Shown: positions 21,458 through 25,710 of the stretch, in pieces | Layout of the letters: the number at the start of each line of letters is the position of its first letter | Position numbering within the stretch: the stretch's first letter is position 1 | Origin: Ruminiclostridium sp. | Lineage (GTDB): Bacteria > Bacillota > Clostridia > Oscillospirales > Ruminococcaceae | NCBI GenBank assembly: GCA_017635095.1 | Contig: JAGBMA010000224.1 | Coordinates: 1-32,668, forward strand | Reading direction: 5' to 3' | Length of the DNA stretch: 32,668 nucleotides | Notes under the pieces: model-generated | The model's input: the letters and a program-made list of their open reading frames with translations, nothing else | Told to the model about the DNA's origin: nothing | Databases searched by the model: none | Made by a program: the position numbers and the translations under genes

Positions 21458-22681
21458 TCAGACTCTTTCCATCTGCTTTTCTATATCGTCATCGCCGCTG
21501 TCATCATCAAGACTTGCGGGATTTTTCGTTTCATATACTACTTTCGGTATAGCTGTATCATCATCGTCATCGAACACCTGCTCCGATGTTTCGGGTGCAG
21601 GCTCTTCTGTGCCGTCCTTTGATGCAGCCCTTCTTCTCCCGCCGCCGCGCTTGGGCTTCTGTGAAGCCTGACTTTCCTGAAGCATATCGGTGAGGTTCTT
21701 GTCACGGTACTTGCCTTTGCCGAGCTGCTCGACCATTTTGAGCTGAGTCATAACGCTTGCATCGGTTATCTCGGAGCCGTCGTCTATGAGCAGGGTGCCG
21801 GAGGGTGCGTCCTCCTGTATCTCGATCTCAACGTTGTCACAGTTCTTGAAAACGTCCTTGAGGAGTTGTTCATCTATCTCGGCTTCTTCGCTCACATCGA
21901 GCTTGGAAAGCGTTATCTTTACGTTTTTGCTGGTCTTGTACTTACGTCCCGCCTCGTGGATCATGCGGGTTATTATGCCCTTTTCCTTCTGGGCGAGAGC
22001 GCCGAGGGTAACGCGCTGGCAGATATCGAAGATAGTATCGAAAAGCTGACGCTCGTACTGCATCATTATCTCGTTCTTGTCCGCGGTGATCTGTTCTGCA
22101 AGGGATTTGAGCTCCACGAGAGTTTCCTTGCACTTTTTCAGAGCCTTGACATAACCGTCATCATAGCCCTTTTTCTGACCTTCCTCATAGCCGGCACGCT
22201 TTTCATTTTCCTTGAGCTTTTCAGCTTCGGACTTTGCGCTGTTAAGGATCTGTTCAGCCTCGCTTCTTGCGTCGAGAACGGTCTGCTGAGCTATTTCCTT
22301 GGTCTTATCGTATATCTCGGTGGCTTTCGATCTTGCACGGAGAACAAATTCCTCCGATTCCCGCTCGTACTTGTTGCGGATAGCTTCGTACTCGGCGATA
22401 AGCTTCTCACGTTCTACGCGGGCTTCTTCGGCGGATACCGAACCGCCTTCGTCTGCACTTTCCGCACCGCTCTGCTCATCGGCGGAGCTTTCTTCGGAAA
22501 GAAGCTTCTCTACTGCCGCGAGAGCCTTCGAGTTTCTGTCATTTCTCTGGGTTATCTCTTCGATCTTGTCTGCATTGGGACTCTTGCCGTAAACGGTCTT
22601 CATTACGGGCTCATCGGTGTCAAAGCTGTTGACATAGATATATCCCGTGCCGATACCGCCTTTTATAACACTGCCCGCCAT
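21458..22681 (-). CDS. fliH: Flagellar assembly protein FliH, with an acidic C-terminal extension
   Basis: A 407-residue FliH-type protein, the FliI-binding peripheral stalk of the export ATPase. A long helix (about 75-190) carries the family's run of small-residue repeats (GYEEGQKKGYDDGYVKA), followed by the FliI-binding C-terminal domain (about 195-335), with DASVMTQLKMVEQL at its end. It is much longer than the usual 230-280 residues. The excess is a charged N-terminal linker and a C-terminal tail of about 65 residues with a basic patch (KPKRGGGRRRA) then acidic clusters (DDDDD, DDDSGDDD). The ATG at 22681 has GGGGG eight bases upstream; the earlier in-frame start at 22726 has none. Name supported by sequence pattern and by position between fliG and fliI. 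Confidence 0.9.
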   Translation of the reverse strand: MAGSVIKGGIGTGYIYVNSFDTDEPVMKTVYGKSPNADKIEEITQRNDRNSKALAAVEKLLSEESSADEQSGAESADEGGSVSAEEARVEREKLIAEYEAIRNKYERESEEFVLRARSKATEIYDKTKEIAQQTVLDARSEAEQILNSAKSEAEKLKENEKRAGYEEGQKKGYDDGYVKALKKCKETLVELKSLAEQITADKNEIMMQYERQLFDTIFDICQRVTLGALAQKEKGIITRMIHEAGRKYKTSKNVKITLSKLDVSEEAEIDEQLLKDVFKNCDNVEIEIQEDAPSGTLLIDDGSEITDASVMTQLKMVEQLGKGKYRDKNLTDMLQESQASQKPKRGGGRRRAASKDGTEEPAPETSEQVFDDDDDTAIPKVVYETKNPASLDDDSGDDDIEKQMERV

Positions 22682-22762
22682 TACGACAACCCCCTTTGCG
22701 GTGATAGTGAAGATAGAAACGCACACGCCGCCGATATTTATGCTGCGTCACGCATTCCCGCG

Positions 22763-23797
22763 TTATGCGATGATCTCGTCCTCTCCGCCCTTGGAGATAG
22801 TGAGCTTGCCTTCGTCCTCAAGACGGCGGATAATTGCAACGATACGCTGCTGTGCTTCTTCAACGTCACGCATACGGACATTATGCAGATACTCGACATC
22901 GGTCTGAGTGGATTCCTTGTTTCTCGAAGACATATTCGCGTAGATAACTTCCGCGACTTCGGGTGTGGAACCCTTGATTGCGACTGCGAGATCTTTCGGA
23001 TCGACTTCGGTAATGAACGCCTGAATTGACATGGAGTCGAGGTTGACGATGTCCTCGAATACGAACATTCGGGAACGGATATCGTCCGCGAGTTTCGGGT
23101 CGCGGAGATTGAGTTCGTCGAAAATATATTTTTCTGTGGAACGGTCCACCTTGTTGAGAACATCTGCTATGTAGTTGATACCGCCGACTTCCATATTCTC
23201 GGTGGTAACAATGTTTGCGAACTTCTTTTCGAGGGTGGATTCAAGGCTCTTGACCACGTCCGGCGATGCGGATTCCATTTTCGCTATACGCTCAACGACC
23301 TCTATGCGCATTTCTTTCGGGAGCTCGGCGAGGATAGCCGAAGCCTGGTCGCTGCGGGCGTAGGAAAGAATGAGCGCTATTGTCTGCGGGTGTTCGTTCT
23401 GAACGATAGCGAGGAGGTTTTTATAGTCTGCCTTGCGCACAAAAGCGAAGGACTTGGATTTGAGCTGTTTTGTGATCTTGTCGAAGAGGGAAGATGCCGC
23501 CTGGGGTCCGAATGCTTTTTCGAGTATCTCGCGGGCATACTCCACGCCGCCCTCGGAGATGACCTTCTGGGTAAGGCACACCTCGTAGAAGTCGTTCAGA
23601 ACGTCCGTAACAACTTCCACCGGCCAGTAATCCATTTTTGCAACTTCGAGAGTAAGACGTTCTATCTCCTCGTCAGAAAAGAACTTGAACACACGGGAAG
23701 CGTTTTCCGAACCGATAGCCGATATTACCATAGCGGCTTTCTGCATCATATTTATGTCATTGGCAGTCTGTGGTGCCTGCTGCTGTTGTTCAGCCAT
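22763..23797 (-). CDS. fliG: Flagellar motor switch protein FliG
   Basis: A 344-residue FliG, the rotor protein that binds the MS ring through its N-terminal domain and meets the stator through its C-terminal domain. Visible are the N-terminal domain (15-105), the EHPQTIALIL motif (135-144), the middle armadillo domain, and the C-terminal torque domain. Against the Escherichia coli protein as I recall it, the charged ridge is largely kept (Lys in AIKG, Arg in NMSSR, one Asp, and a later Arg), with Thr where E. coli has Asp288. The ATG has an AGGGG ribosome site upstream. Just upstream is a small gene encoding a second copy of the FliF tail that binds FliG. Confidence 0.97.
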   Translation of the reverse strand: MAEQQQQAPQTANDINMMQKAAMVISAIGSENASRVFKFFSDEEIERLTLEVAKMDYWPVEVVTDVLNDFYEVCLTQKVISEGGVEYAREILEKAFGPQAASSLFDKITKQLKSKSFAFVRKADYKNLLAIVQNEHPQTIALILSYARSDQASAILAELPKEMRIEVVERIAKMESASPDVVKSLESTLEKKFANIVTTENMEVGGINYIADVLNKVDRSTEKYIFDELNLRDPKLADDIRSRMFVFEDIVNLDSMSIQAFITEVDPKDLAVAIKGSTPEVAEVIYANMSSRNKESTQTDVEYLHNVRMRDVEEAQQRIVAIIRRLEDEGKLTISKGGEDEIIA

Positions 23798-23841
23798 TCG
23801 TAAGATCCCCTTTCATAACGTTCCCCCGGCGGATCGCGGGG

Positions 23842-24015
23842 TCATTCTCCGCTGTTGATCCACGAGCGTATGAGCTGCGCAACGACCTCGGGCTGCAGAT
23901 TAGAGAAATCACTTATCTCTTTTCTCAGCAGATCGTCCTTCGAGTCCTTTTCCTTTTCGGTAAGGCTCTTTATCTCAAAGACGCGGTCGTCATTGTCATT
24001 ATATCGTCTGTCCAT
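23842..24015 (-). CDS. 57-residue stand-alone FliF C-terminal-tail protein
   Basis: An unlisted small gene between fliF and fliG. Its product (MDRRYNDNDDRVFEIKSLTE... ending AQLIRSWINSGE) aligns with the last 46 residues of FliF in the window: 25 of 45 compared positions are identical by eye, including FEI-SL, LL-KEI-DFS, PE-VAQLIR-W. That part of FliF is the helix pair that inserts into the FliG N-terminal domain. The protein has no membrane segment, so it would be a soluble FliG-docking peptide. ATG at 24015 has AAGGA ten bases upstream; it starts 30 bases after the fliF stop and ends 44 before the fliG start, like a true operon member. Many differences from the fliF 3' end are at third codon positions, suggesting selection on protein. 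A decaying duplication is the alternative. Confidence 0.8.
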   Translation of the reverse strand: MDRRYNDNDDRVFEIKSLTEKEKDSKDDLLRKEISDFSNLQPEVVAQLIRSWINSGE

Positions 24016-24045
24016 AAAAGATATGTCCTTATATCATGAGCGGGA

Positions 24046-25710
24046 TCATTCCTCGCCCTTCATCCATGTGCGTATGAGCTGTGCAACGATCTCGGGGTTT
24101 GAAGTCGAGAAGTCCCTGATCTCCTTCTTGAGCAGGGCATCTCTCGAAGCCTCGTTCTCGTCGCCGGAAAGGCTCTGGATCTCGAAATCGTAGTCTCCCT
24201 CGCTCTCGGCTCTTCTGCGCATTTCCTCCTCGTCGTAGGTGATGTTCGCGGCGGCAGGGTTCGCACCCGAGGAAGCCGCTACCGCAGCAGCCTTTCTTGC
24301 CTTCAGGCGCTTCTTGCTGGAACCCGCAGCAACAAGTGCGGTCACGAGCAGGATTATAAGCAGCAGACCAAGCGCTATGATGATGAACACGAGGGTATTT
24401 CTGCCGCCCTGTACGATAACTCCGCCGTCGCCTTCGCCGTCACCGGTCCTGTCAAGGGTGAAGTTCGTGGGTATGAACGATACCTTATCCACCGTTGTAC
24501 CGATGCAGTCCGCGATAAGCTTCTCCCAGTCGTCTATGTTCGCCTGTGTGAAGTTCTCCGGATCTCCGTCAACGATGACGGAAGCGGAGATGTTGTCGTA
24601 GCTGTAGCCGTCTTTCTCGACCTGCTTTATCGCTTCATTGACGAGATAGTGTATTTCATGCTGTGTTTCGTAGTAGAACTCATCGCCGTCGCCGATACGG
24701 AGCGTCGGGTAGTCCGGCGAGATATCGGAGTTGACCGTCGTTCCGACAAGACCGCCCTCTTCGGCATTACCGCCGCCTGCGGAAACGGTCTGCTCATCCT
24801 GCACCATACCGCCGTGAGTTCCTTCTTCGTCCACGGATGGGGTGTATTCCTTTATCTGGGCGACTTCGGCATCATAGTTGAGCCTTACGTCAACGCCTAT
24901 CCTGTAATCGGCGAAAACTTTTCTGAGCAGTTCGCCGAGCTTGGTGTCGAGAATGCCGGAGATCTCGTTCTGGAATTCGAGCCGTCTGTAGTAGAGTTCC
25001 ACCTCGTCCTCGCTGTCGAGGGCGTTCGCGACAGTCTCGGTAGTCAGGAGCTGGCCGGCGCTGTCGGTCACGGTGATGTTTTCCTGCTTCAATCTCGGTA
25101 CGGCAGTCCTTACGAGGTTATAGATGCCCTCAATGGTATTGACACTGAGGGGGTGGCTGAGCCTGAGAACGACCGACGCGCCGGGTTCGTCCCGGGTATT
25201 TGAAATAACGTAGTTGTCGTTTTCGGGTATATTGAGTATGACGAGCGCCGATTCAACGCCGTCGTAAGTCGCGAGGGTGGCGCGGAGGTTCTCCTGGAGC
25301 TGCTGGACCTGCTTTACGCGCTTGTCCGTCTCGGTGGAGAACATACCTATGCTGTTGTCCCAGATATCGTAGTTGAATGCGTTTTTCGGGTAGCCCTTTA
25401 CTGCAAGCTGAGCGCGCAGGGTATCCACCTTATCTGCGGGGACCATGATATCTCCGCCTATGTAGCGCACTTCGCTCTCTCCGAGCTCGCCCTGGAGCAC
25501 AGTCACGATCTCGGTCGCCTCTTCTGTGGTAGCGTTGCTGTAGAGCACGGCGTAGCGGGTTATGGAATTGATTATGATAAGGACTATGAGCGAAACTATC
25601 ACGACTGACGCAACAGATATTATCGCGATCTTTATCTTTTTGTCGAAAGCGTCCCAGCGGGTCTTTATCCCGCCGAAAAACTTGCCGAACATTTCTTTAG
25701 CTTTATCCAT
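24046..25710 (-). CDS. fliF: Flagellar MS-ring protein FliF
   Basis: A 554-residue FliF, forming the MS ring in the cytoplasmic membrane on which the basal body and export gate assemble. N-terminal membrane helix about 24-47, ring-building motifs through 50-280 (RYAVLYSNATTEEATEIV, GDIMVPADKVDTLRAQLAVKG), a variable acidic/glycine-rich stretch (about 285-340), third ring motif, a second membrane helix at about 435-458, and the cytoplasmic FliG-binding tail at 505-554 (FEIQSLSGDE... VAQLIRTWMKGEE). Length is normal. The tail is intact although a second copy of it is encoded by the next gene. It lies 47 bases after fliE. Confidence 0.97.
   Translation of the reverse strand: MDKAKEMFGKFFGGIKTRWDAFDKKIKIAIISVASVVIVSLIVLIIINSITRYAVLYSNATTEEATEIVTVLQGELGESEVRYIGGDIMVPADKVDTLRAQLAVKGYPKNAFNYDIWDNSIGMFSTETDKRVKQVQQLQENLRATLATYDGVESALVILNIPENDNYVISNTRDEPGASVVLRLSHPLSVNTIEGIYNLVRTAVPRLKQENITVTDSAGQLLTTETVANALDSEDEVELYYRRLEFQNEISGILDTKLGELLRKVFADYRIGVDVRLNYDAEVAQIKEYTPSVDEEGTHGGMVQDEQTVSAGGGNAEEGGLVGTTVNSDISPDYPTLRIGDGDEFYYETQHEIHYLVNEAIKQVEKDGYSYDNISASVIVDGDPENFTQANIDDWEKLIADCIGTTVDKVSFIPTNFTLDRTGDGEGDGGVIVQGGRNTLVFIIIALGLLLIILLVTALVAAGSSKKRLKARKAAAVAASSGANPAAANITYDEEEMRRRAESEGDYDFEIQSLSGDENEASRDALLKKEIRDFSTSNPEIVAQLIRTWMKGEE

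Follow-up and report, generated by a model that had tools for sequence, protein, structure and literature searches.

A free-standing paralogue of the FliF docking tail is encoded between fliF and fliG in a group of Ruminiclostridium-related genomes

The DNA stretch analysed here in full, called the window, is the 32,668-nucleotide contig JAGBMA010000224.1 of Ruminiclostridium sp. (assembly GCA_017635095.1), one contig of a 3.83 Mb genome in 236 contigs. Its minus strand carries flagellar genes in the order flgB-flgC-fliE-fliF-small gene-fliG-fliH-fliI-fliJ (flgB and flgC are named from gene order and rod-protein domains, and FliH falls just below the Pfam cut-off). FliF is assumed to pair one to one with FliG via its C-terminal tail, and this joint sets how the membrane-supramembrane (MS) ring templates the switch ring. 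The small gene between fliF and fliG encodes a 57-mer related to that tail and is, judged by its sequence, a real protein-coding gene that is kept as a protein and presumably translated. A preliminary description of the locus had proposed a 57-codon gene with its own ATG and ribosome site in this gap; the open reading frame (ORF) lies exactly at the position described, in the minus strand, with the ATG and a Shine-Dalgarno (SD)-like stretch as listed in Table 1. The duplex of this stretch with the anti-SD sequence has an energy of -4.8 kcal/mol. In the four other genomes that carry the gene the values run from -3.9 to -8.4 kcal/mol. An ORF with ATG, stop and SD-like stretch is present in all five carriers, and in each of them the SD of the small gene is weaker than that of fliG.

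The relation to FliF is apparent at both levels. In a whole-genome search the DNA of the small gene matched the 3' end of its own fliF at 71% over 147 bp (E 8e-13), and the protein shares 52% identity with its own FliF tail (E 2.6e-11). The product had been described as a paralogue of the last 46 residues of FliF; the paralogy stands, and the limit to 46 residues does not, as the alignment spans nearly all 57. The start Met is aligned with an internal Met of FliF located 58 codons from the fliF stop, and the alignments show that the two-helix tail with its conserved P/E...A.L.R.W core is present in the small protein. The NCBIfam fliF model TIGR00206 matches the 57-mer at profile positions 506-553 of 555 (E 8.6e-5, 21.7 bits), far under the cut-off of 129.75 because only the tail is there. 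The ring domains YscJ_FliF and YscJ_FliF_C and membrane helices were not found in the 57-mer, which matched 0 Pfam families; it is therefore not a FliF but only a FliF tail.

Matches to the small protein were found in 56 of 71 genomes of the genus, each through the FliF tail, with a second, separate match in five. The fliF-fliG junction was readable in 54 of the 56 (G040 and G044 have no fliG on the contig) and in three genomes outside the genus. Five of the 54 genus junctions carry the small gene (G000, G060, G030, G057 and G032), in gaps of 216-293 nt. A whole-genome search at E 0.01 gave no further copies elsewhere in the genus genomes, and no homologue or remnant was detected in the other 37 of the 42 gaps longer than 30 nt (36 in the genus and one in an outsider; best E 0.16). 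Within a sample of 391 genomes of the class, 137 had tail matches and only the window's genome had two. Short-frame tail matches in G268 and G250 of this sample were rejected, since the FliF ends are cut there by contig edges and no stop lies between edge and match. With a pattern scan across 84,980 species genomes, 98 related stretches were obtained; the counts rest on the 80 loci that were kept. Among the 14 single-stop read-through rows 12 were used, L137 and L139 being near-copies of L136. Four of the 80 are the carrier relatives, and the matches in the other 76 end long FliF-type frames of 410 to 587 codons (two of these loci lack fliG). Beyond the five carriers, no free-standing tail copy was found in the 391 class genomes or the 80 kept loci. 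Two of the four carrier records bear the name 'Ruminiclostridium sp.' and stem from the omasum and rumen of water deer; the others are labelled 'uncultured Clostridia bacterium'.

A tail tree, whose input was without 13 FliF tails and without the three outsiders, separates the five small proteins as a single group from the FliF tails included (ultrafast bootstrap 98). In the FliF and FliG tree, the carriers fall within one clade of eight species together with the non-carriers G047, G002 and G023 (bootstrap 97, local support 1.000). G032 joins these three non-carriers (71), and a topology that unites the carriers was not rejected (approximately unbiased test, p 0.30); therefore one gain without loss, or one gain and one loss, accounts for the pattern. 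By all sequence indications the small gene goes back to a single tandem duplication of the fliF 3' end. An origin from a second fliF or fliG was rejected, since each of the 11 genomes checked has one FliG and the window's genome has one FliF. A double-tailed FliF made by reading through the fliF stop was also discarded, given the frame difference in G057 and G032, where 31 and 23 nt separate the fliF stop from the small-gene ATG, and extra in-frame stops in G000, G060 and G030.

Two other gaps showed features of their own. The 440-nt fliF-fliG gap of L024/L038 (G029:C17) encodes a stretch of about 30 residues (VPAFLQLCKDEECAERQ.RKIAERNN.KRAA) at least two times in different frames, and therefore holds a repeated DNA unit and not a tail copy. 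In the 94-nt gap of the non-carrier G058 (L005), a nine-base inverted repeat, TGTACCGGA/TCCGGTACA, stands between fliF and fliG.

The small gene is under purifying selection and is not a lone decaying duplicate. The preliminary description had named a ratio of nonsynonymous to synonymous substitutions per site (dN/dS, omega) near 1, and absence or frameshifting in close relatives, as signs of decay. Omega was well under 1 on the five-species tree (0.09), where omega 1 was rejected with twice the log-likelihood difference (2dlnL) at 65.7; start, stop and frame are kept in the five species, and ten close relatives lack the gene. For the pair G030-G057, omega was 0.025, or 0.17 with dS taken from FliF (2dlnL 42.5), and omega 1 was rejected in both halves of the gene (18.1 and 28.2). 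In a simulation of unconstrained drift, the ATG and open frame survived in 4% (at 0.5 substitutions per site) to 0.3% (at 1.4) of cases. With homology, five carriers and omega under 1, the proposal of a separate FliF-tail paralogue in the operon was upheld. A functionless duplicate of the fliF end, decaying or neutral, would fit the fast evolution of the protein (between G000 and G060, dN is 0.35 in the small protein against 0.02 in the FliF tail and 0.04 in the remainder of FliF) and the relatives without the gene. It is very unlikely and largely contradicted by the preservation of the frame, the start and the core residues across five species, by omega far under 1, and by the lack of any remnant in the 37 other gaps. 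Highly improbable, too, is a role in cis, as a spacer or leader tuning fliG translation, with an incidental peptide: the location directly upstream of fliG in the operon would suit it, but selection acts on the amino acids, fliG has its own strong SD in carriers and relatives alike, and the stretch between the small gene and fliG has no unusual RNA fold in five genomes (z-scores -0.3 to 1.2).

The FliG N-terminal domain, FliG_N, co-folds with the FliF tail into a complete domain (PMC7355467, cited, like the other PMC papers here, from excerpts), and docking of the 57-mer on FliG_N is plausible. A profile of 17 tails reached the solved FliF tails (best E 5e-5); phmmer with the 57-mer against the PDB gave a chance match only (E 1.6). 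In an AlphaFold2 model of the read-through of the carrier homologue L084, the tail is predicted as two helices (3-42 and 44-56; predicted local distance difference test, pLDDT, about 90) lying beside FliG_N. Some structural alignments cover both tail and FliG_N, with low Z or high root mean square deviation; the tail helices alone aligned with no flagellar FliF tail chain among the matches listed, which we did not count as evidence. The sequences also bear on whether the peptide has left FliG for another partner, such as FliH, FlhF or a second ring. The N-terminal half is divergent, and there are changes specific to the small protein, for example N in place of K after the Trp and the missing N before PE, as could be expected after such a move. 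These changes run, however, toward residues found in the FliF tails of other families, so that the FliG-facing core looks kept, and we consider a change of partner quite unlikely.

For the role of the small protein, our favoured if tentative proposal is that of a soluble ligand of FliG_N competing with FliF during assembly. The product would be the two-helix FliF tail in soluble form, co-folding with FliG_N; the free tail would occupy FliG_N of cytosolic FliG, in reversible competition with the ring-bound FliF tails, until the avidity of a many-subunit MS ring displaces it. Free FliG would thus be buffered, and the time and place of its nucleation on FliF would be set. The cap, timer and stoichiometry roles suggested in the preliminary description would likewise have to be read as conjectures for the 57-mer. 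We favour competition because the SD of the small gene is weaker than that of fliG in the five carriers, because ring-bound FliF would have the advantage of avidity, and because in Vibrio the formation of FliF rings is promoted by FliG (PMC11481574).

The main rival is a filler. Here the free tail would cap the FliG_N of those FliG subunits that have no FliF partner where the cytoplasmic (C) ring exceeds the MS ring, such that the numbers of FliG and FliF need not match. The C-ring symmetry of 32 to 36 against 34 FliF per MS ring in E. coli and Salmonella (PMC10128058), the complete domain formed when FliG_N co-folds with the tail (PMC7355467) and the weaker SD of the small gene, which would fit a minority subunit, agree with it. 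As the FliG copy number in E. coli stays near 34 at any FliG level (PMC10128058), and close relatives do without the small gene, we regard a filler as unlikely. The tail could also be an activator, its binding turning FliG to the polymerising form or signalling the assembly state as a checkpoint. The energy of FliF binding has been speculated to favour FliG polymerisation (PMC7355467), and in Bacillus subtilis the conformation of FliG is believed to act as a gate for hook export (PMC4526659); still, a diffusing activator would be expected to yield FliG polymers off the ring, which makes this quite improbable.

Several points weigh against the competition proposal. The findings here do not discriminate among competition, filling and activation. 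The small gene is present in only five species, known from assemblies, and since ten close relatives are without it, it is not essential for this motor type. The small protein evolves several-fold faster than FliF. The pair G000-G060 rejects omega 1 just weakly (omega 0.35, 2dlnL 5.8), in the N-terminal half (5.3) and not in the C-terminal one (1.5), and with synonymous sites near saturation all omega values are rough, their direction being clear. The L084 model has a predicted template modelling score (pTM) of 0.56 and five-model means of 63-72; its linker tethers the tail to FliG, AlphaFold2 may recall the structure 5TDY, and the best structural matches of the model cover FliG alone.

We know of no relation between SwrB of Bacillus and the FliF tail, and the duplicated C-ring parts of Campylobacter jejuni are reportedly whole core components and not the MS-C joint. 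The closest known element is the FliF C-tail bound to FliG_N (PDB 5TDY, 5WUJ), to which the small protein is homologous over nearly its full length, with the core residues kept and a predicted position beside FliG_N; it differs in being separate and soluble, with its own start and without periplasmic ring domains or membrane helices. Spa33-C/SctQ-C of type III secretion is alike in principle, a free copy of a ring domain that stands beside the long form as a separate subunit, yet its domain is unrelated and arises through alternative translation of a single gene (PMC4832279), whereas the small gene is a duplicated one. The C-ring proteins of Campylobacter jejuni likewise show C-ring parts diversified through gene duplication (PMC6946799). 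SwrB is a lineage-restricted factor acting at the FliF/FliG assembly step (PMC4526659), the same step only if competition is the correct reading, and unlike the small gene it encodes a membrane protein from the end of the fla/che operon. Engineered FliF-FliG fusions modify this tail-FliG_N joint as well, with effects on switching bias or ring size (PMC7355467); they lock the joint one to one, whereas a free tail would loosen it. What is new here is that a known docking element has become a separate gene. The preliminary description knew of no such protein, and in the open-licence PMC literature, judged by titles and abstract openings, no report of a free-standing FliF tail was found. If the competition proposal is true, a natural, selected, soluble competitor of the FliF-FliG joint would offer a ready way to probe what sets ring number and assembly order, the joint would be shown to be regulatable, and this would be a clear case of a ring-docking peptide freed by gene duplication, with a logic comparable to that of SctQ-C.

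In the relatives, a free tail may be made from inside fliF, a lead with mixed support. The in-frame fliF ATG aligned with the small-gene start is kept in all of the ten nearest non-carriers (with a one-codon shift in G059 and G048) and in two of the five carriers, the other three having GTC, ATA and GCG; since carriers and non-carriers may differ by a single event, this reciprocal pattern carries no independent statistical weight. Synonymous conservation in the non-carrier fliF is highest in the windows at the internal Met, which rank 1, 4, 5 and 8 of 559 (centres +1, +2, 0 and -1). Over five independent pairs, same-residue codons are identical there in 24 of 29 cases versus 1320 of 2261 elsewhere (p 0.005); the carriers show no such excess (10/19). 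After the internal Met, the mean third-position A is 0.59 in non-carriers versus 0.25 in carriers, and A-ending codons exceed the synonymous shuffle (p 7.5e-7, four lineages).

As an observation in itself, a run of A-ending and conserved synonymous codons surrounds an in-frame ATG 57-62 codons before the fliF stop in G047, G002, G023, G058, G055, G054, G059, G048, G022 and G039, the strongest such signal in fliF there.

The initiation signals give a different picture. An SD energy of -5.5 kcal/mol or lower occurs near 21 of 26 aligned ATGs versus 91 of 467 other fliF ATGs, but there is no excess over synonymous shuffles (combined p 0.65 in four lineages, 0.13 in a second subclade), and acidic or Gly-rich residues therefore explain the SD-like stretch. 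Synonymous conservation over the SD-like codons is not special (ranks 76 to 266 of 559 for window centres -3 to -7), and the A signature is missing at true starts, namely those of the small gene (0.12-0.25) and fliG (mean 0.26 of 15). The GAG at codon -3 shows no variation (14 of 14), but three of the 23 Glu columns, that one included, are likewise uniform. Outside the genus, none of 124 ATGs located 45-110 codons before the fliF stop reaches -10 kcal/mol (76 loci). Other overlapping signals could explain the codon conservation at the internal Met. We consider it doubtful that the free FliF tail is a standing motor part, made ancestrally from an internal fliF start and then from a dedicated gene in the window's clade, where the internal start decayed; the FliF:FliG joint would then be three-party, a soluble docking subunit tuning ring ratio or assembly timing. 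In the second subclade (G070, G018, G036 and G020), GGAGGAG stands before an in-frame ATG 56 codons from the fliF stop; there was no A signal there, and the SD-like stretch is no stronger than the residues predict.

Table 1. Elements of the fliF-fliG region in the window
Feature	Position	Strand	Basis
fliF (MS ring), intact	24046..25710	-	Pfam YscJ_FliF, YscJ_FliF_C; NCBIfam fliF
Internal in-frame fliF ATG aligned with the small-gene ATG; possible internal start in relatives	24220..24222	-	Alignment; against it, SD strength not above synonymous shuffles
FliF C-terminal FliG-docking tail, putative parent of the duplication	24049..24228	-	DNA and protein similarity; tail-FliG_N structure (PMC6079021, PMC7355467)
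SD-like AAGGA of the small gene	24026..24030	-	Sequence; 10 nt upstream of the ATG
Small gene, free-standing FliF-tail paralogue, 57 aa, ATG 24015 to TGA 23842	23842..24015	-	ORF; homologues in G060, G032, G030 and G057; omega
SD of fliG, AAAGGGG	23807..23813	-	Sequence; similar one in relatives without the small gene
fliG, intact, single copy, FliG_N + FliG_M + FliG_C	22763..23797	-	Pfam; copy count

In the opposite strand, a mechanical ORF list gave a 387-codon open frame at 21866-23029 of the window, antisense to fliH and to the 3' part of fliG.
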